From contig NC_017583.1 in assembly GCF_000184345.1 (NCBI RefSeq), positions 1,798,001-1,862,000 of the forward strand: a stretch of 64,000 bases of DNA, in the 5' to 3' direction. The stretch is from Spirochaeta thermophila DSM 6578 (GTDB taxonomy: Bacteria; Spirochaetota; Spirochaetia; Winmispirales; Winmispiraceae). How positions within the stretch are numbered: position 1 is the stretch's first letter; the number at the start of each line of letters is the position of its first letter. The notes under the pieces are model-generated. The model was not told where the DNA came from. It worked only from the letters and a program-made list of their open reading frames with translations, and searched no databases. Positions 14,130 through 25,743 of this stretch are shown in pieces. A program made the position numbers and the translations under genes.

Positions 14130-15242
14130 TCAGCTTCTCCTCTCTTCTTCCAGGACGTGCTGGTAGAGGTCGAGCGTCTCGTTCAGCATCCTCTCGAAGG
14201 TAAAATGGGTTTCGTACCGTGCTCTTCCGGCCCTGCCCATGGAAGCTCTCAATCGGGGATCAGCGATCAATCGCTCGAGCCTGTCGGCAAGGGTATGCAT
14301 ATCCCCCCTGCCTACCACATACCCCGTAACGCCATCTTGCACGGCTTCTTCCACTCCACCTACACGAGAGGCCACGACAGGGAGCCCCGCCCTCATGGCC
14401 TCGAGGATACTCCTTGGAAAGCCTTCCCAATGGGTTACCAGCACATAGATCTGCGCTCGGGAGAGAATCGTCTCCACGTCACTGCGAAATCCGTGGAAAG
14501 ATATTTTCTCCCCCAGTCCGAGGCTGGAAGCCAGTCGCTTCATCTCCCCTAGAAGCGGACCATCTCCCACACACTCCATGTGCCATTCCATGTGGCGCAG
14601 CTTCGAGAGCGCGAGGAAGAGCGTCCTGTGATCCTTCTGAGGCTCGAATCGAGCTAACATCACCATGCGTGGAGGAAGAACTTCTGGCCTCGCATGGAGT
14701 TCTACAGGAATATCCGGCATCCCGTTGTGGATGGCAACCAATTGAGAGGGGTTCCCCACTTTCCCCTTGAGGGCGATCTCTCTATCGAACTCGGACACCG
14801 TGATGATCTTTCGAGCACAGGGAGCCACGATCCGCTCCACCACGCGATAGATCCACCGGGAAGCGGGAGGTACCCCTTCCGTGAAGGCCCAGCCGTGGGC
14901 CGTAAAGACCACGGGGATGTCGAGGGAACGCGCCGCCAATCTCCCGAGGACACCGGCCTTCGACGTATGGGTTGAGACGAGATCCGGACGGAGATCCTTC
15001 AAGACCTTCCGAATCCTCAAGAACGCCTCGAGGTCCTTGAACGGGGAAATGCTTCTCTTCAATGAAGGTATTACCACGTAGGGAATACCACATTCGGCAA
15101 GTTCATCGAGGAAAATCCCTCTCCCACCCACAAGCACGGTACACCGATGCCCCAGAGCCATGAGCGCCTTGCAGAGATCACGGACATGGACCTGAACTCC
15201 GCCCCTGGTGTCGGACCTGGTAAGGACATACACTATGTGCAT
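14130..15242 (-). CDS. Family 4 glycosyltransferase, paralogue A
   Basis: A 370-residue GT4 enzyme starting MHIVYVLTRSDTRGGVQVHVRD. The glycine-rich acceptor loop is at residues 12-18, HTSKAGVLGRLAA near 96-108, and the donor motif HWEGFPRSILEAMRAGLPVVAS near residue 272, followed by RVGGVEEAV. It closely resembles the product of 16563-17672, and the two flank the Wzy-like gene, so a duplication is likely. The start overlaps the 3' end of that Wzy-like gene by ten bases. Its likely role is a cytoplasmic sugar transfer during repeat-unit assembly. Confidence 0.9.
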   Translation of the reverse strand: MHIVYVLTRSDTRGGVQVHVRDLCKALMALGHRCTVLVGGRGIFLDELAECGIPYVVIPSLKRSISPFKDLEAFLRIRKVLKDLRPDLVSTHTSKAGVLGRLAARSLDIPVVFTAHGWAFTEGVPPASRWIYRVVERIVAPCARKIITVSEFDREIALKGKVGNPSQLVAIHNGMPDIPVELHARPEVLPPRMVMLARFEPQKDHRTLFLALSKLRHMEWHMECVGDGPLLGEMKRLASSLGLGEKISFHGFRSDVETILSRAQIYVLVTHWEGFPRSILEAMRAGLPVVASRVGGVEEAVQDGVTGYVVGRGDMHTLADRLERLIADPRLRASMGRAGRARYETHFTFERMLNETLDLYQHVLEEERRS

Positions 15243-16570
15243 TCCGGTTCCCTCGCTTTCTCCTCCTTATCCGTTCCCACCCCTACTATAGTGAAAAAGA
15301 TCAGCATCCAGTGCCATATGGGAGTACGATACCGAACTGCGGCTCCGAGATTCTGGTAAGAAATGACGGCGTACGCCCCTCCCCAGATGGTGACCACCAC
15401 CAGTGCCAGGAAGAAAAGCCTTCTTTCTTCTTTCGTCATTCTCTTGAGCCTTCCCAAGGAAAAAAGGAAATACGCGAGAAGGCCGGTATTCACCAGGGCC
15501 GCATAGGCGGCAAACATATTGTGCGCATCCCACAGGAGAGGCCTGAAGAGAGCCGTGAACCACATCCAGGGATACACTCGCGCAAGATCTCCCCAGGAGG
15601 TAATCGTCACCCTTTGTGCTGCTCCCCCGTGAGCCCAGGCTTGAGACTTTTTTATGATAAAACCCAGAAATGCATTCAGGTTGCTTATCTCAAATAACCT
15701 AAAGACGACCAACGCCCCTCCTACTGCCACTACACCACCCAGCACCGCCCCCACCACCCGTTTCCTCCCACGCGTATACACCACCCAGAGCACATAGAGC
15801 ACCGCGCCATAGATGGCCACGTACCAGAAACGGAAATACATGAAAGGCACCAGGGAGAGCAAGACCCACACAGCCTTCTTTATACTGGGTTCCCGCGAAA
15901 AACGATAAAGAAGAAGAGAAGTGACTACGGAAAACACATAGAGAATAGGATCCTTCCCGTAGTGGCTCGACCACAAGAGGAACATGGGCTCAAAGAACAG
16001 AAGCACTTCGAGAAGATGCTTTCGCAGATCCTCCTTTATCTTGCTGAGGAGCACTCTATCGAACATTATACTTGCCCACCAACTGAGCGTACCGAATATC
16101 ACGATGACCAATCGATAGGAAGGACCAAGGAAAGCATGTATCCAGGACACGACTGACTCTATGCTAAGAGTCGCAGCTCCAAAGACAAGCGAAGGTCGGA
16201 ATCGCCATATCCCTTCTGAATAAAAAATAAACGCATCGAATGTTTCAAAATATGTTGATTCATATATAGGAAAAAGAAGAAAAATGATTATCATTCTCCA
16301 CATGTAGGCAAATACATAGAGACTCTTGTACCAGTTGAGATAATAGAGACCCACCATTGAAACAATGAAAAGGATCCCAGCCCAGACGAGCGGATACACG
16401 AACTCCCAGAAGGGATCCATACCCAGGTACCTATACCGCCAGAACTCCCAGTAGAACACACCGGCAGATCTGAAGATCACAGGAAGCGCTATCCCTATCA
16501 ACACAAGAGAGAGGAGTACAATCCCCATTTCCTGTAATCGCTCCCTCTTCCCACCCCACCACTTATTCAT
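15233..16570 (-). CDS. Probable Wzy-like polysaccharide polymerase (membrane protein)
   Basis: A 445-residue protein with about ten hydrophobic helices, starting MNKWWGGKRERLQEMGIVLLSLVLIG, and several larger loops. No family motif is firmly recognisable, but the size, topology and position between glycosyltransferase genes of a Wzx/Wzz cluster are what is expected of a Wzy O-antigen-type polymerase, which is always poorly conserved. It overlaps both neighbours (16563-16570 and 15233-15242), so it is part of a tightly packed operon. Another possibility is a membrane glycosyltransferase of the GT39 or EpsG type. Confidence 0.6.
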   Translation of the reverse strand: MNKWWGGKRERLQEMGIVLLSLVLIGIALPVIFRSAGVFYWEFWRYRYLGMDPFWEFVYPLVWAGILFIVSMVGLYYLNWYKSLYVFAYMWRMIIIFLLFPIYESTYFETFDAFIFYSEGIWRFRPSLVFGAATLSIESVVSWIHAFLGPSYRLVIVIFGTLSWWASIMFDRVLLSKIKEDLRKHLLEVLLFFEPMFLLWSSHYGKDPILYVFSVVTSLLLYRFSREPSIKKAVWVLLSLVPFMYFRFWYVAIYGAVLYVLWVVYTRGRKRVVGAVLGGVVAVGGALVVFRLFEISNLNAFLGFIIKKSQAWAHGGAAQRVTITSWGDLARVYPWMWFTALFRPLLWDAHNMFAAYAALVNTGLLAYFLFSLGRLKRMTKEERRLFFLALVVVTIWGGAYAVISYQNLGAAVRYRTPIWHWMLIFFTIVGVGTDKEEKAREPECT

Positions 16571-18793: not shown

Positions 18794-20043
18794 GACACCA
18801 GATCCTCCAAGAGAGCGAGATAACGCGGGACGACCTTCTCGAAAGAGAAGTGCTCAACAACCTTTCTCCTTGCGTTCCGCGAGAGGCTCTCATAATCAGC
18901 TTCGTAAAGCACCCACTCTATCCCTCGCGCGAGATCCTCTGGATCATAGGGACGAGCGAGGTAGCCGTTGTGTTGATGATCAATCATGTCACTATTTCCT
19001 CCTATCTTAAATGCTACAATAGGAGTAGCACAGGACAAGGCTTCCATAATTGTATTTGAGAGATTCTCTTGCAAACTAGGCACTACAACCACGTCCACAG
19101 CATTGTATAATGCTATAAGAGCAACATCATCATTTACGTGGCCTACGTAGTGGATAGGAAAGTCCTCCCATAAAGAAGGACCACTTGAGCTACCAAAAAC
19201 CACGAGTAAAATATCATCCACTTTCCTAGCGGAATGGCGTAATTTCTCTAAAGCGCCTAACAGTTGCTGAAACCCTTTATTGGGATCCAGAGTCGCAGAT
19301 ACTGCTCCAAAAAGGATTAATTTTTTATCATCCGGTAAATTCCACAACTCTCTTGCAAAACGTTTCTCTACAGACTTATATATTGATACATCAATGGGAT
19401 TAGGTAGTATCTCTATAGGACACTCCTTTAGGAGAGCACTCTTTTGGGCACAATGTACTAACCAATGACTTGGGCTTATGATATATATCTTGTGAGCAAC
19501 AGCTTTAAGTGTGCGCTGTTTCCTCGAAAACACTGAATTACTCAGATCCTTCTCTCTCTCACTCTCAAGCACAGGGCACTTCCCGCATACAACCTCATAT
19601 GCCCGGCACTCTCCGGTGAGATGGCAACCTCCGCTGAAAGGCCACATATCATGCATAGTCCATACAAGTGGTCTTTTTATTTTTTTGAGATCCTCAATTC
19701 GAAGAAAACCACCTGTGATCCAATGCAAATGGACCACATCGGGATCCAGTTCATCTATAATCTCAAACACGTAGCGCGGCGAAGGCACCCACGAAGGACT
19801 GAAAAGAGTAGTCGATTTATAGTTGTATCTTCTTAGCGGTAACTGATCGAGAAAGGAGCGAAGCAAAGCTGTTCCCTTCTCCCACCTCGTTCGCGGACCT
19901 ACCACTGATGGATCATCCCCCATCTTCTGCTGCACCAGCATCCAGCTTTCCACTCCTGCTCTCTGCAGCCCTTTATGCAACCTGTACGCAGCCCGAGCTG
20001 CCCCACCGAAGATGTCATTTGTGTTTATGTGAAGAATTCTCAT
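18790..20043 (-). CDS. Family 4 glycosyltransferase
   Basis: A 417-residue GT4 enzyme. It starts MRILHINTNDIFGGAARAAYRL with the acceptor-domain glycine motif, has WTMHDMWPFSGGCHLTGEC near residue 130 (a cysteine-containing block typical of WcaC/WbbL-like transferases), and a donor domain with SLQENLSNTIMEALSCATPIVA near residue 325. I place the start at 20043, where the ATG overlaps the TGA of the upstream gene; nine more codons upstream look like read-in from it. It ends with a four-base overlap into the next gene. Base composition becomes clearly AT-richer here than in the flanking DNA. Confidence 0.9.
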   Translation of the reverse strand: MRILHINTNDIFGGAARAAYRLHKGLQRAGVESWMLVQQKMGDDPSVVGPRTRWEKGTALLRSFLDQLPLRRYNYKSTTLFSPSWVPSPRYVFEIIDELDPDVVHLHWITGGFLRIEDLKKIKRPLVWTMHDMWPFSGGCHLTGECRAYEVVCGKCPVLESEREKDLSNSVFSRKQRTLKAVAHKIYIISPSHWLVHCAQKSALLKECPIEILPNPIDVSIYKSVEKRFARELWNLPDDKKLILFGAVSATLDPNKGFQQLLGALEKLRHSARKVDDILLVVFGSSSGPSLWEDFPIHYVGHVNDDVALIALYNAVDVVVVPSLQENLSNTIMEALSCATPIVAFKIGGNSDMIDHQHNGYLARPYDPEDLARGIEWVLYEADYESLSRNARRKVVEHFSFEKVVPRYLALLEDLVS

Positions 20044-20954
20044 CTGTCTTTTATCTCCGAATACGCCCATTTCACTTTTCTAACTATCTGTAGGAAAAGA
20101 CTCCCTCGCCTCTGCCGGTAGAATCTCTTGATCCGAGCTACCGCAAGTGAATTTTCTTCAATCATTGAGGGAAAATCTATCTCTTTCTTCATGTTTAAAG
20201 AAGTATCAAACCAATGAGTATGTCCGCAATGCATTCCCGAACCATCAAGGCCAATATTTTTTACATATGAGACAGAAGGATTAAGACATAATCCCTGATG
20301 TTGGAAAATTGTGGCATACCAGAAAATTGCCCATGTATCCAACTTTCCATGAAAATTATCCAGGACCTGTCTCCAGAAATTCTCAACTCCGTCTAGATTA
20401 AATTTGCGGATATCCTTCTTAGAGAAAAGGGTTATTAGTTGTTGGGGATCTTTCTTATAATAAGTCCAGCGATCAGCCCAGGTACCCCACCCCCAACAAT
20501 TCATTACTCTCCAAAAAAAGGCATCTTCCATTCCTGTAGTATCTATAGGATAATTCCATCCACTTATGTGCCATACTTTAGGTTCGTCTTCATACCGTTC
20601 AAGTGTAGCTTTCATAAAATGAAGAAAATAAGGGCTCGTCACTAAGTCATCCTCAAGAACAACTACTCTCCCATGCTCGTTAATCACAGAAGTGACACCG
20701 TCAATGATATTACGCGCAAGTCCCCAATTTTCCTCCCGTTTGATTATTATTATCTCTTTAAAACCTTTTGCCTTTTTAAGGAGTTCTCTTACTTTATTCA
20801 CCTTAACCTCATCGTTAGAAGTCCGAGGCCCATCAGAGAAAATATATAAAACGCTATCTTCGATCCCTTCGTTCTCACAGATTGAGAAAAGTGTCTGCTG
20901 AGTATGATATGGACGATTATATACAAACATCACCACAGGTGTCATTCTTTTCAT
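20040..20954 (-). CDS. GT-A glycosyltransferase
   Basis: A 304-residue sugar transferase beginning MTPVVMFVYNRPYHTQQTLFSI. The Rossmann-like start, LYIFSDGPR near residue 40, NWGLARNIIDGV near residue 80 and VVLEDDLVTSPYFLHFM near residue 97 (the EDD metal site) place it among GT-A enzymes similar to the GNT-I-like and GT2 families. A WGWGTWADRW segment near residue 155 probably contacts the acceptor. Both ends overlap neighbours by four bases. The gene is AT-rich. Substrate is unknown. Confidence 0.85.
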   Translation of the reverse strand: MKRMTPVVMFVYNRPYHTQQTLFSICENEGIEDSVLYIFSDGPRTSNDEVKVNKVRELLKKAKGFKEIIIIKREENWGLARNIIDGVTSVINEHGRVVVLEDDLVTSPYFLHFMKATLERYEDEPKVWHISGWNYPIDTTGMEDAFFWRVMNCWGWGTWADRWTYYKKDPQQLITLFSKKDIRKFNLDGVENFWRQVLDNFHGKLDTWAIFWYATIFQHQGLCLNPSVSYVKNIGLDGSGMHCGHTHWFDTSLNMKKEIDFPSMIEENSLAVARIKRFYRQRRGSLFLQIVRKVKWAYSEIKDR

Positions 20955-22252
20955 GAATAAATTCCTCCAGTTTTATTCGCTATGTAGCTTATAAACTCAG
21001 AGATTGGAAATTCTTCTTGCAATTTTTTTATGCGCTCTTGAAGAGAAGTTACCAATTCATTTCTAAAATGTGGGTCATAATAAAGGGATTTTACTCTATT
21101 TAAAATCTGCTCGCATATTCCTGGTTCACCAATATCAAAAGCAAAATCTTCAATACCAAGTAGTTCAAAAAGATCCTCATATTTATGAGCCCATCCTGTA
21201 GCAATACTCGGGATATAATTTCTCAATGAGACTACGAGTCCATGATATCTGCCACTTACTACTACAGCACCGTACGATTTGATTATCGTTTCAATCTCAT
21301 TAGGAGACAACTCCTTATCAAACGGAAAGAGAAAGCGATTGTGATCCAAGAATTCAGTCTTTAGCAGTAGGAATATTGGAGCATCATCTAAACTATGCAT
21401 GAGCAGTATCGTAGGAATTTCAAGAGCAATTAATCCTTTCAACAATGACTTATAAAAAGACTCTACTATTTCCGATGGATAGTAATCATACAGTCTCATA
21501 TTGGGAATGACGATAACATGTTTATTCCGAGGGAAATACCAGCGCAAAGGGGAAATTACATCTTTTGATTTAAAAGAATATAACAAACAAATATCAGGCC
21601 AGAGAATAGCCTCTATACCCAACGATACCAGCGCTTCTAAAGATGTGGTCTCTCGTGCAAAAACCACACTCCTTGATAGGTGTTTTTGTATTCGCTTTAC
21701 AATTGGATTCTCTCCTCTCACCTCAAAAGGACCAAAAGACTGTGGGAAAAAAACATACGTACTTTTTTTGAATAACTTATCAAAACTCAGTTGAATAAAA
21801 TTCATAATATCGTAATCGTTTCCTTTGATCTTATAACCATATCCAGAGATATCTATGACCAAGACCACTTCTTTCTTTACTCGTAAAAGGTAAAAGACAT
21901 TCTTGATGTCAAGTATTAATCTGAGTGACAAAATTCTTTTCATAAAAAACTTTATATTTCTGATCAGTATTTTTATATTTCCACTTATATTTATATCTGA
22001 GTCAAACAAGATGTAACAAAAATTATAAATATAGGGAATTTGTAAAATGCGATGTTCCCTATAGGATTTTCTTACTCGGATAGGAAAAGAATCTACAATA
22101 TACTTTTCCATATAGGGATAATAGGAAGACAAGAGAGCAAGGGTGGTGTCCAGAAGAAGTTGAGCTCCTTTATTCACAAAGTTACCCCCTATTATGACTA
22201 TACTCCCCTTCTGATATCTGGTTTTTGCCGTTGCTTTCTCTTTACAGATCAT
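20951..22252 (-). CDS. Polysaccharide pyruvyl transferase family protein
   Basis: A 433-residue protein of the CsaB/WcaK/AmsJ family, which adds pyruvate ketals to surface polysaccharides. Signatures are the N-terminal IGGNFVNKGAQLLLDTTL (residues about 21-38), YVFFPQSFGPF near residue 150, and the C-terminal AVVVSGRYHGLVVSLRNYIPSIA block near residue 330. The start overlaps the stop of the nitroreductase-like gene upstream (ATGA), so the two proteins are made together. The gene is markedly AT-rich, supporting recent acquisition. Some members of this family are not pyruvyl transferases, so the exact reaction is uncertain. Confidence 0.85.
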   Translation of the reverse strand: MICKEKATAKTRYQKGSIVIIGGNFVNKGAQLLLDTTLALLSSYYPYMEKYIVDSFPIRVRKSYREHRILQIPYIYNFCYILFDSDINISGNIKILIRNIKFFMKRILSLRLILDIKNVFYLLRVKKEVVLVIDISGYGYKIKGNDYDIMNFIQLSFDKLFKKSTYVFFPQSFGPFEVRGENPIVKRIQKHLSRSVVFARETTSLEALVSLGIEAILWPDICLLYSFKSKDVISPLRWYFPRNKHVIVIPNMRLYDYYPSEIVESFYKSLLKGLIALEIPTILLMHSLDDAPIFLLLKTEFLDHNRFLFPFDKELSPNEIETIIKSYGAVVVSGRYHGLVVSLRNYIPSIATGWAHKYEDLFELLGIEDFAFDIGEPGICEQILNRVKSLYYDPHFRNELVTSLQERIKKLQEEFPISEFISYIANKTGGIYS

Positions 22253-23277
22253 CTTATCTCCAGAATTTCCTCTATCGTTTTTCTAACCGAAAGAGCCACT
22301 CGAGACTCCATCTCTCTATACCCCAAAGCAATACTTGTTACCACAGTTTCATATGGCTTCAAAGCTAAGAGAGTCTCTAACCTCTGACTGAGATTATAAT
22401 CACGAGGCCAGTTCATAAAACATGAATCAACGCCTTGCTCATGCAGAGCTAATACAAAAGCCAAAGAGGCTAGAGCACTATCCACATATACTTCATGGAA
22501 CGATCTTGTTGTAGGAAAGGCACTATAATCCCCAATTACAAAAACAACAACGGGTGCATCAAATGCATTTCCTCCTCCACCTGGCGGCAATGCCGCTACC
22601 TTTTTGAGCAATTCTTTATCGTTTTTAATGATAACAAATCTATATGGTTGCCTGTTACAGCCAGAAGGGGCTTGAAGAGCGCATCTTATTGCATATGTGA
22701 GAACTTCATCACTTGGGACTTCTTTAGAAAACACACGAATACTACTCCTGCTACAGAGAAAAGAGAAGAAAGAGGAGTCATCATTCGGACACCTCTCTTC
22801 TTCTGGGATCTTCTCAACAGCATGACCCGCCTTCAATTCAGTAAAAATCTCCATTGCTCTAATATATCTCTCATCATCACTGTGTGTTCTAAAGAAATAC
22901 TCTTCAAGTACCCTCAAGGAATATTCAAAGAAAGAGGGATTTTCTTCATGAAGGCATGGAGCGAGATTTTTTAGTGTCATTACTGTCTCAAGAATATACG
23001 AAAGTGCAAATTCGGAACGAAACTCCTTTTGCGTCAACCCTTTTTCAATTCCATGAAGACGTCGGCGTAAAGAATACTCATTGCTATTTAATCTTTCTAA
23101 TCTATTATACTTGTACAAACCTCTTAGATATCTCACATACTCCCATATTAATTGTTTATCTAATATGAGGAACAATACTAGAAATAGTCTGCTTTTTGAT
23201 GCCCATAGCATACTTTTTCTCCAAATGCTTGCCCTTATTTCTCTATAAATTTTTTTTAAGAGACTAATTCCCCCCAC
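22249..23277 (-). CDS. Nitroreductase-family flavoprotein with long N-terminal region
   Basis: About 342 residues from a GTG at 23277, which is preceded by GGAGG; a longer reading from 23361 would overlap the flippase gene by 98 bases. The C-terminal half is a nitroreductase domain: CSRSSIRVF near residue 180, LQAPSGCNRQPYRFVII near residue 205 (the FMN-binding serine/asparagine/arginine block), and the MNWPRDYN and ALGYRE elements at the end. The N-terminal 130 or so residues are helical and lack known motifs. It sits between a flippase and a pyruvyl transferase, and overlaps the latter. What an FMN oxidoreductase does in a glycan cluster is not established; modifying a sugar or the acyl or ketal donor is a guess. 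Confidence 0.8.
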   Translation of the reverse strand: MGGISLLKKIYREIRASIWRKSMLWASKSRLFLVLFLILDKQLIWEYVRYLRGLYKYNRLERLNSNEYSLRRRLHGIEKGLTQKEFRSEFALSYILETVMTLKNLAPCLHEENPSFFEYSLRVLEEYFFRTHSDDERYIRAMEIFTELKAGHAVEKIPEEERCPNDDSSFFSFLCSRSSIRVFSKEVPSDEVLTYAIRCALQAPSGCNRQPYRFVIIKNDKELLKKVAALPPGGGGNAFDAPVVVFVIGDYSAFPTTRSFHEVYVDSALASLAFVLALHEQGVDSCFMNWPRDYNLSQRLETLLALKPYETVVTSIALGYREMESRVALSVRKTIEEILEIR

Positions 23278-24613
23278 TCTTCTCGCCTCCTCTACTGAGT
23301 CTTTTAAACAGGAACAAAGGAAAAAGTAAAGACCTAAAAAACATTGAATTAAGATGACCATACTTCGTATAGATAATAGGGATCAGAAAGAATGAGAGAA
23401 ACCTACTCAATAAAGTAGCCCATGCAGCCCCTACGAATCCGGCCATTTTTATAAATGAATAATTTAGAAATATATTTGCACACATACCAATCAGTGTAGA
23501 AACCATTATTACATGTGTAGATTTATCAGCAATCCAGTAACGTCCTCTCACATAAGAAAGCCCCACCAAGACTCCTACCCAGACGTATAAGCTCAAAACC
23601 TCTGCAGATTGGCTGTATTCTGATCCGAGAAGAAACGAAACAATCTCCTCAGATGCTATAGAAAACATAACACAAATGCTTATACCAAACCAGAAGAGTA
23701 AATCATGTAAATATTGCAACCTTTGCTTCGAAACCGATTCACTATTTTTTTTCGCTGTTATCATCGCTGGGAATAAAGAGTTGACTATAGTTACAGGTAC
23801 AAAATACCAAGATTCAGCCACTCTCACCGCTGCAGAATATAATCCAACAGACTCTACGTTGAGCAGTGATCTAATCATAAGTTGATCTATTCTCATATAG
23901 ACAATTACCGAAAAAGACGAAAAGATTAAAGGCCAACTTTCAGCAATAAGCCTTTTCCCTATTTTCCAGGAGAAATCTTGGAGTGACATGAGTTTATCAG
24001 AAGTAAGCGAAAAAAAGAGAAAAAGGAAAATTCCTTTGACTACCATTTCTATTGCAACCACGATAGCGAAATAGAATAAAGAACCATTAAAGAGTATGAA
24101 CAAAACCTTGAGAGCTGAACTCAATAGAAGGGCAACCATCCCCGCAATACCTGAGTATATGCCTTTTAATTTTGCTCTGAAGAAAGCATCAAATGTTTCG
24201 AAACTTGAGAAAAAGAGACTTACTCCTACAAGTATCACCACTACTTTTTCAATGAATGCCAAATCAAGAATCAGCACAAGTAGCACCAAGATTAAGAAGG
24301 CAACCGCTCCCGCTATTGTACGGATAACCATCGAGGTGCTTATAATAGTGCTTGTGAGAGGAGGATTCTCTACAACCTCTCTGACAACGATATCATCCAA
24401 TCCCAGCTTGGCAACTACTCCCAAAAGAGCCACTAAACTAAGAGCAAAACTCAGAATCCCATAGTTCTCCGGTCCAAGATATCTAGCTACCCATACCCCA
24501 ACAAGAAAACCAAGGAATAGTCTTAATACTTTATCAAAAAGTAACCAAGAAGTATTATGAAAATACTTTATCGCTCCACTATGATTTTTCAGTTTCAGAA
24601 CTTTCTCTCGCAT
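23264..24613 (-). CDS. Wzx-type polysaccharide flippase (second)
   Basis: A 449-residue, AT-rich gene for a protein with 12-14 hydrophobic helices. The start NTSWLLFDKVLRLFLGFLVGVWVARYLGPENYG is the classic N-terminus of Wzx proteins (residues about 20-53). It would move lipid-linked repeat units to the periplasmic face. The distance from the other flippase (7128-8603) and the low similarity in the N-terminal region argue against a simple duplication. A GAGGG ribosome binding site precedes the ATG, and its stop overlaps the GTG start of the nitroreductase gene. Confidence 0.9.
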   Translation of the reverse strand: MREKVLKLKNHSGAIKYFHNTSWLLFDKVLRLFLGFLVGVWVARYLGPENYGILSFALSLVALLGVVAKLGLDDIVVREVVENPPLTSTIISTSMVIRTIAGAVAFLILVLLVLILDLAFIEKVVVILVGVSLFFSSFETFDAFFRAKLKGIYSGIAGMVALLLSSALKVLFILFNGSLFYFAIVVAIEMVVKGIFLFLFFSLTSDKLMSLQDFSWKIGKRLIAESWPLIFSSFSVIVYMRIDQLMIRSLLNVESVGLYSAAVRVAESWYFVPVTIVNSLFPAMITAKKNSESVSKQRLQYLHDLLFWFGISICVMFSIASEEIVSFLLGSEYSQSAEVLSLYVWVGVLVGLSYVRGRYWIADKSTHVIMVSTLIGMCANIFLNYSFIKMAGFVGAAWATLLSRFLSFFLIPIIYTKYGHLNSMFFRSLLFPLFLFKRLSRGGEKSGGN

Positions 24614-24633
24614 TCTATTCCCTCTTTATCCCC

Positions 24634-25743
24634 TCAACTACCCATCTCTAGAGAAGAGACATACCACTCATACAACCTCTCCACCCCTTCTCTTAACCCC
24701 ACCGAGTGCCGCCAGCCGAGGGAGTGGAGTCTTGAAACATCGGTTCGCTTCACCGGTGTACCATCGGGTTTCTCGGGATTAAACACAATATCTCCTTTAA
24801 ACCCCACCACCTCTTTCATGAGCTCGGCCAAGTCTCTGATACTAATGTCTTCACCTGTGCCTATATTGATATGTGTGTTCCTAATCTCCTGTTGACCGCC
24901 TAGGAACTTTTTTACTATGTCCTCAAAATCAACGTGCTCCATAAGAAATACGCATGCATCAGCGAGATCATCCACCCAGAGGAACTCTCGTCTGGGTCTC
25001 CCAGTACCCCATATTTCAACCTCTACTCCATGGGATGACTTTCGTACTCCGTACTTCTCCAGTAAGGTTAAAATCTCGCCTTCTGAGATATCATCCCCTC
25101 TCTCTTCAAGAGGTCGACGGGAGAGATCGGCCCGAATAAGCTCCCAATTTTCTTGCTGGAGGGCCTTTGCGAGGTGGAACTTTCGGAGAAGGGCAGGAAG
25201 CACATGCGAGGTCTCTAGATCGAAGTTGTCATTGGGACCATAAAGATTGGTGGGCATTACGGAGATAAAATTAGTACCATACTGGAGGTTGTAGCTCTCG
25301 CACATCCTCATGCCAGCAATCTTTGCTATGGCGTATGGTTCGTTGGTATACTCGAGTTCGCCGGTAAGAAGGTACTCTTCTTTCATCGGCTGGGGGGCAA
25401 GACGTGGATAAATACATGTGGATCCAAGGAAAAGGAGTTTCTTCACCCCATGAAGATAGCTCTGGTGAATGACGTTGCTCTGAATCATGAGGTTCTGGTA
25501 GATAAACTCTGCTCTGTAGAGGTTGTTCGCCCAAATTCCACCCACCTTTGCTGCGGCAAGGAAGACATACTCTGGCTTCTCGTTCTCAAAGAAACGAGAG
25601 ACTGCCTCCTGATCAGTGAGGTCAAGTTCGCTATGGGTTTTGGTGAGGATATTCGTATATCCCTTCTTCCTCAACGCCTGCACGAGCGCTGCTCCCACAA
25701 GCCCCCTGTGTCCAGCTACATATATCTTACTCTCTTTTTCCAT
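24634..25743 (-). CDS. fcl: GDP-L-fucose synthase
   Basis: A 369-residue extended short-chain dehydrogenase that converts GDP-4-keto-6-deoxymannose to GDP-L-fucose. Diagnostic features are [12 protein letters not shown] (NADP-binding glycine motif, residues 9-20), [16 protein letters not shown] near residue 105 with the conserved serine and cysteine, and [19 protein letters not shown] near residue 135 with the catalytic YxxxK. It is longer than the usual 310-320 residues because of an insertion around residues 200-250 ([20 protein letters not shown] and following), also seen in some family members. The gene follows gmd directly, so GDP-fucose is a likely building block of the polymer. Confidence 0.95.

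Follow-up and report, generated by a model that had tools for sequence, protein, structure and literature searches.

The closest described counterparts of the gene pair analysed here are the polysaccharide pyruvyl transferases (PPTs) of family PF04230, such as CsaB, Pvg1, WcaK and ExoV, and the MurA/MurB enzymes. Colanic acid carries a pyruvate ketal, and its cluster in Escherichia coli encodes the PPT WcaK and neither a nitroreductase-fold flavoenzyme (NTR) nor an FrhB-type flavoprotein. Lactyl (1-carboxyethyl) ethers are found in O-antigens, capsules and exopolysaccharides, among them those of Salinivibrio and Klebsiella K22, and the origin of this decoration has so far been poorly understood. 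Other antigens with such ethers are those of E. coli O58, O124 and O164 and of Shigella dysenteriae 3 and 5. The methyl signal of the lactyl group lies at 1.40 ppm in Salinivibrio, and that of the pyruvate ketal at 1.57 ppm in Cobetia. In the open-licence literature we found no enzyme assigned to these ethers (a proposal may be in print elsewhere), and the only work bearing on a link between nitroreductases and PPTs was a Klebsiella survey, the accessible part of which lists both and leaves them unlinked (PMC4616057). Here we describe a 64,000-nucleotide stretch of the Spirochaeta thermophila DSM 6578 genome (NC_017583.1, positions 1,798,001 to 1,862,000; the window) in which a PPT gene overlaps an NTR gene. 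We lean towards the view that such NTR–PPT pairs are modules that make lactyl ethers through an enolpyruvyl intermediate.

The proposed chemistry would resemble that of MurA/MurB, in that an enolpyruvyl ether derived from phosphoenolpyruvate (PEP) is formed on a sugar and then reduced by a flavin to a lactyl ether. The parts differ: the pair combines PF04230 with PF00881/PF14512, the Pfam search found neither the MurA (EPSP synthase) nor the MurB family in the two proteins, NTR has a flavin mononucleotide (FMN) nitroreductase fold and not the MurB fold, and the proposed acceptor is a lipid-linked repeat unit. With CsaB, Pvg1, WcaK and ExoV, the window PPT shares family membership and an R-x-H motif, and it differs from them in having a dedicated flavoenzyme partner. 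According to docking, the arginine of this motif in ketal-forming CsaB contacts PEP (PMC10435577).

Conserved pairing of NTR and PPT

The two genes overlap by four bases, as the first-pass annotation of this DNA had noted; the shared bases lie in ATGA:

22249..23277, minus strand: NTR, nitroreductase-fold flavoenzyme with a helical N-terminal extension, 342 aa, GTG start
20951..22252, minus strand: PPT, polysaccharide pyruvyl transferase, 433 aa

The window NTR belongs to the family as we define it, by the motifs HxxEKGL and PSxCNRQ and a PPT neighbour. A scan of named genomes returned 213 NTR relatives; the best 80 were kept and the other 133 left out, and all 80-locus counts refer to the former. 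Their hosts include Bacteroidota, Cyanobacteriota, Actinomycetota, Bacillota, Pseudomonadota, Planctomycetota, Spirochaetota and a Woesearchaeota bin, among others. PPT was found within about 9 kb of NTR in 76 of the 80 loci: within 300 bp on the same strand in 51, fused in 1, one gene apart in 15, further away in 8 and on the opposite strand in 1 (the PPT of locus L051 is weak, at 26 bits). All five scan seeds came from PPT-linked plasmid loci, which is a source of bias; an order-wide sample was searched with the same NTR model and contained NTR in 14 of 247 genomes. One of these had already been counted, and each of the other 13 also encodes PPT (on the same strand and no more than 130 bp off in 11, at 582 bp in one, and on the opposite strand at a distance of about 6 kb in the last). 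Fused or adjacent pairs in other genomes, which the first-pass annotation had named as a check, are found in many phyla.

That the two genes are chance neighbours in a gene-rich polysaccharide island would suit the overlaps, which are general in the window operon. However, PPT is the immediate neighbour of NTR in 53 of 75 loci, compared with 13.4 expected if PPT were placed at random among the locus genes, it accompanies NTR in all 13 further genomes, and three PPT–NTR fusions exist (in Gemmobacter, Paracoccus and Loktanella), which cluster together in the NTR tree. Together with the 76 of 80 loci that hold both genes, these figures led us to reject chance adjacency, to which we give almost no credence. 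Among seven plasmid loci, PPT is adjacent to NTR in E. coli p30COLEC-2, Pseudorhodobacter and Acuticoccus, one gene away in Lactiplantibacillus, fused in Gemmobacter and Paracoccus, and lacking in Ruegeria. The Ruegeria sp. B32 plasmid (L040, 474-14756) contains a mirror-image duplication around a formyltransferase gene, in which NTR, ATP-grasp, HAD, glycosyltransferase and export genes recur in opposite orientation with the same protein accessions. An archaeal NTR–PPT pair with overlapping open reading frames (ORFs) lies in the Candidatus Woesearchaeota bin (L116, 1431-3708). No NTR relative was found in viral contigs in a single-protein scan, and none in phages.

As a control, ordinary nitroreductase loci from the phylum of the window (Spirochaetota) contained PPT in 1 of 28 cases. 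In that locus (L019), the nitroreductase next to PPT lacks the HxxEKGL and CNRQ motifs but scores highest of the 28 on the NTR model, and it is apparently a diverged member of the PPT-linked family. In the reverse direction, with flanks of about 1.5 kb, NTR was found in 0 and FrhB in 1 of 30 Spirochaetota PPT loci, a set that excludes the window pair and its sister and in which 2 PPTs were missed by the PPT model used. In eight Spirochaetota loci (L165, L171, L173, L175, L176, L178, L179 and L181), PPT domains lie within open frames of about 790–870 aa. These frames gave no match to the NTR model or to the FrhB model and are putative PPT fusions of other kinds. On the condition set by the first-pass annotation, that homologues should not occur without each other, the outcome is asymmetric: NTR nearly always stands with PPT, whereas PPT often stands without NTR. 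Judged from these neighbourhoods, NTR depends on PPT and PPT does not depend on NTR, which fits an NTR that acts on the PPT product.

NTR and FrhB in E. coli O-antigen clusters

A DNA search with one NTR–PPT pair reached the E. coli O150 cluster, which is ordered galF-rmlBDAC-NTR-wzx-PPT-glycosyltransferases-wzy-gnd. Its NTR gene is present in 8 of 5426 E. coli genomes, and the O150-type PPT is found in the same 8. The O150 O-antigen is reported to contain 2-acetamido-4-O-[(S)-1-carboxyethyl]-2-deoxy-D-glucose. The window resembles O150 in combining PPT with NTR, and differs in that the O150 PPT is of another motif type and the O150 pair is split by wzx. The O69 cluster has the O150 layout (rmlBDAC-FrhB-wzx-PPT), with a PPT 48% identical to that of O150 and an FrhB-type flavoprotein (PF04432, 105 bits; PF04422, 37 bits) in place of NTR, indicating that one flavoprotein type was exchanged for another. 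The O69 O-antigen presumably holds a similar ether, though less surely than that of O150. Reduction of a vinyl group is known from FrhB relatives such as BciB. FrhB and NTR occur together in just 2 of the 80 loci (L067 and L104), which suggests that they are mostly alternatives, although an FrhB model derived, as here, from a single sequence could overlook more distant members.

This exchange bears on whether NTR could be a non-catalytic or regulatory partner of PPT, such as a scaffold or redox sensor. Such a role would suit the large, conserved N-terminal extension of NTR, and would allow an FrhB-type protein to take its place. Yet replacement by an unrelated flavoprotein suggests redox chemistry, and R205, R209, P232, S233 and C235–Q238 of the nitroreductase domain are invariant in all 74 aligned sequences (73 of the 80 relatives and the window; a second alignment comprised 59 of the 80 and the window). 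We therefore consider a non-catalytic or regulatory NTR improbable.

Clusters with the order wzx-FrhB-PPT were also observed in E. coli IAI1 (L158, 7948-11677; the cluster recurs in AHM9C68I) and on the K. aerogenes plasmid p35_D (L160, 341-4412), and are candidates for additional lactyl-ether antigens. On the E. coli plasmid p30COLEC-2 (L041, 2724-11776), an O-antigen-like cluster flanked by insertion sequences carries one NTR gene and two PPT genes that are 86% identical; this NTR gene is present in 3 of 5426 E. coli genomes, always plasmid-borne (one partial). The pairs of L141 and L142 had no match in the E. coli genomes.

Klebsiella capsules

The Klebsiella survey records 35 PPT genes and 28 pyruvylated types among 79 types, names K8, K22, K37 and K66 as having PPT without pyruvate, counts 2 nitroreductase genes and 1 F420-hydrogenase-like gene in the whole set of capsule (cps) loci, and describes the K22 and K37 loci as having the same genes save for an acetyltransferase frameshift (PMC4616057). 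The K22 capsule contains 4-O-[(S)-1-carboxyethyl]-D-glucuronic acid, according to a title cited in PMC3857182. K22 would join PPT to a lactyl ether, as O150 and O69 are presumed to do. The published K22 primers matched neither the NTR loci gathered here nor the E. coli genomes, the latter search being insensitive for 20-mers.

These capsules weigh on a further explanation, in which an ordinary pyruvate ketal is the product of PPT and NTR, in a reaction of its own, oxidises or reduces a sugar or nucleotide sugar of the same repeat unit. Consistent with this idea, the window PPT keeps the R-x-H of its ketal-forming relatives, and nitroreductase-fold enzymes can be oxidases, as reported for TyzC (PMC10404671). 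We nevertheless judge it unlikely: the four Klebsiella types with PPT and no pyruvate include K22, with its lactyl ether, and K37, and NTR is nearly always the neighbour or fusion partner of PPT. The association spans several PPT motif types, which argues that the target is the pyruvate-derived group and not a particular sugar. The first-pass annotation had coupled the flavoenzyme to a ketal-forming transferase and allowed it to act on either the sugar or the pyruvate-derived group; action on the latter is the best reading we found. A transferase that does no more than form a ketal is improbable in these pairs, and modification of a ketal once complete is less likely than a reduction that yields a 1-carboxyethyl ether.

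Domain architecture of NTR

The longest NTR ORF opens at ATG 23361, and GTG 23277 sits 8 nt behind GAGGAGG, making the latter, as first annotated, the likely start. Four features were located, with residues numbered on the long form:

22252..22791, minus strand: FMN nitroreductase-fold domain, residues 191-370
22648..22668, minus strand: PSGCNRQ, the family motif PSxCNRQ, in the nitroreductase domain
22804..23172, minus strand: N-terminal four-helix domain, residues 64-186, present in 74 of 74 aligned sequences
23035..23055, minus strand: HGIEKGL, the family motif HxxEKGL

NTR matches PF00881 with 75.9 bits (gathering cut-off 23.5), and PF00881/PF14512 are the only Pfam families in it. No NCBIfam nitroreductase-fold family matched at E<=1e-5, and the named ones (BluB, malonic semialdehyde reductase, the FbiB C-terminal domain and Acg) gave 14.5-22.7 bits, far under the NCBIfam cut-offs. 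Residues 193-370 of the predicted structure (mean predicted local distance difference test score (pLDDT) 84.9) align with 3ge5_B (Z 20.7, root mean square deviation (rmsd) 2.3, 170 aligned) and with the enone reductase CLA-ER (4qlx; Z 18.9, rmsd 2.3, 152 aligned). The model thus predicts the same FMN-domain fold as in CLA-ER and other nitroreductase-fold C=C reductases; these are not known to have an N-terminal helical domain of this kind or to be partnered by a PPT.

The nitroreductase fold starts near residue 191, so that the N-terminal extension, put at about 130 residues in the first-pass annotation, is real but comprises about 165. The observation that it carries no known motif stands: no Pfam or NCBIfam model covers it at the thresholds used, no family matched at E<=0.01 (the best Pfam match is at chance level, E 0.34) and the domain alone had no Foldseek match at E<=0.001. 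Predicted alone, residues 64-186 form four helices (pLDDT 88.8). Known folds proposed for this domain by VIA-align, with Z up to 9.9 (rmsd 3.8, 98 aligned), were rejected, being unrelated helical proteins at the chance level for bundles; the lack of an assignment by Pfam, Foldseek or VIA-align is no proof of a new fold. Within HxxEKGL, H103 and E106 are invariant and K107 and G108 are conserved in at least 90% of the 74 aligned sequences.

The window pair belongs to a side branch

The window PPT matches PF04230 with 68 bits (cut-off 25.3) over model positions 1-278 of 280 and is the sole PF04230 protein of the genome. It misses the equivalog cut-offs for CsaB (TIGR03609, 46 versus 213.1) and WcaK (TIGR04006, 19.7 versus 727.1). 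Its R-x-H motif aligns by eye, over the motif only, with the PEP-binding R306/H308 of CsaB:

21239..21256, minus strand: SGRYHG, R-x-H motif

A quick NTR tree places the window together with L040, L046 and L144-L153 (Shimodaira–Hasegawa-like approximate likelihood ratio test (SH-aLRT) 91), where it sits on its own long branch. Twelve of the 13 members have a PPT, and all of these partners are of the R-x-H type (SR[FY]HG or SGRYHG); in the larger NTR group, the PPT partners are mostly TDSFHG-like (TDSFHG/C), as in O150.

Proposed mechanism

What is directly observed is that the pairing is conserved, that fusions occur, how the domains of NTR are laid out and that E. coli O150 carries the pair; from this we infer the chemistry and the order of steps, and we extrapolate the same product to the window. 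Within an exopolysaccharide cluster of the Wzx/Wzy type, NTR and PPT would act as a decorating module of two enzymes. PPT would move the C3 unit of PEP onto one sugar hydroxyl of the lipid-linked repeat unit to yield an enolpyruvyl ether, or an equivalent oxocarbenium before the ketal closes. NTR, with FMN reduced by NAD(P)H, would then add a hydride across the C=C bond, and the end product would be a 1-carboxyethyl (lactic acid) ether. Ordinary nitroreductases lack the helical N-terminal domain, whose role is probably to dock NTR on PPT or the acceptor.

The reverse direction, in which NTR is a flavin-dependent oxidase or desaturase acting on the pyruvyl or lactyl group, draws on the frequency of flavin-dependent oxidases in the nitroreductase superfamily, as described in PMC10404671. 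PEP, however, is already at the level of pyruvate. The ketal-forming colanic acid cluster lacks NTR, and the end product reported for O150 is reduced. We thus give this alternative little weight.

Several points weigh against the formation of a lactyl ether by reduction, particularly in the window. We know of no polysaccharide structure for its branch, nor for this organism. By motif, the PPTs of this branch carry SR[FY]HG or SGRYHG, as in the ketal-forming WcaK and CsaB, and not the O150 motif; the first step of the window pair may therefore still be of the ketal type, and the window product is less certain than the O150 product. The O150 NTR itself reads HRIEKAF and not HxxEKGL, and a literature search for the O150 and O69 structures gave no text. 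NTR stands without PPT in 4 of the 80 loci (L088, where the stretch ends 130 bp past the gene, L111, L113 and L123), as well as in the Ruegeria locus. That the two Klebsiella nitroreductases belong to K22 and K37 is our deduction from the counts, and K8, with PPT and no pyruvate, is left unexplained.

On a broader scale, we are evenly divided on a hitherto unrecognised general route in which PF04230 transferases are diverted from ketal to ether by a dedicated flavoenzyme partner, NTR or FrhB-type. The chemistry of MurA/MurB would then have been invented a second time with unrelated components, and horizontal transfer would have carried it across bacteria and into some archaea. If the pair makes lactyl ethers, ketals and lactyl ethers could be distinguished by gene content alone, the structures of serotypes would become predictable and glycan engineering would gain a flavin-dependent step.

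Genomic context of the window pair

On the basis of ORFs and family searches, the minus strand of the window between about 30.7 and about 13 kb reads as an exopolysaccharide cluster. It encodes a polyprenyl glycosylphosphotransferase, GDP-mannose dehydratase-like and GDP-fucose synthase-like proteins, a flippase, NTR, PPT and glycosyltransferases. The genes flanking the pair are:

23264..24613, minus strand: flippase (Wzx-like), overlaps NTR by 14 bp
20040..20954, minus strand: glycosyltransferase, overlaps PPT by 4 bp

Further junctions in the same strand run overlap by 31, 4, 8 and 10 bp; between the flippase and the gene at 15233-16570, 6 of the 7 junctions are overlapping. The first-pass annotation had concluded from the NTR/PPT overlap that the proteins are made together; the overlap is real, but because overlaps are habitual in this operon it is weak evidence of linkage.

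The G+C content of NTR and PPT is 36%, compared with 54% for the window. A sharp dip was observed at 19000-25000, with 36-39% at its centre and 50-55% on the flanks, spanning the flippase, NTR, PPT and one glycosyltransferase gene. Across 392 genomes of the phylum, searched in six frames, there was just one full-length close relative, in a sister genome (88% identity). The A+T-rich operon core and this single relative suggest that the pair was acquired from elsewhere. E. coli O150 and the E. coli plasmid likewise have a flippase gene next to the pair, as does the window.

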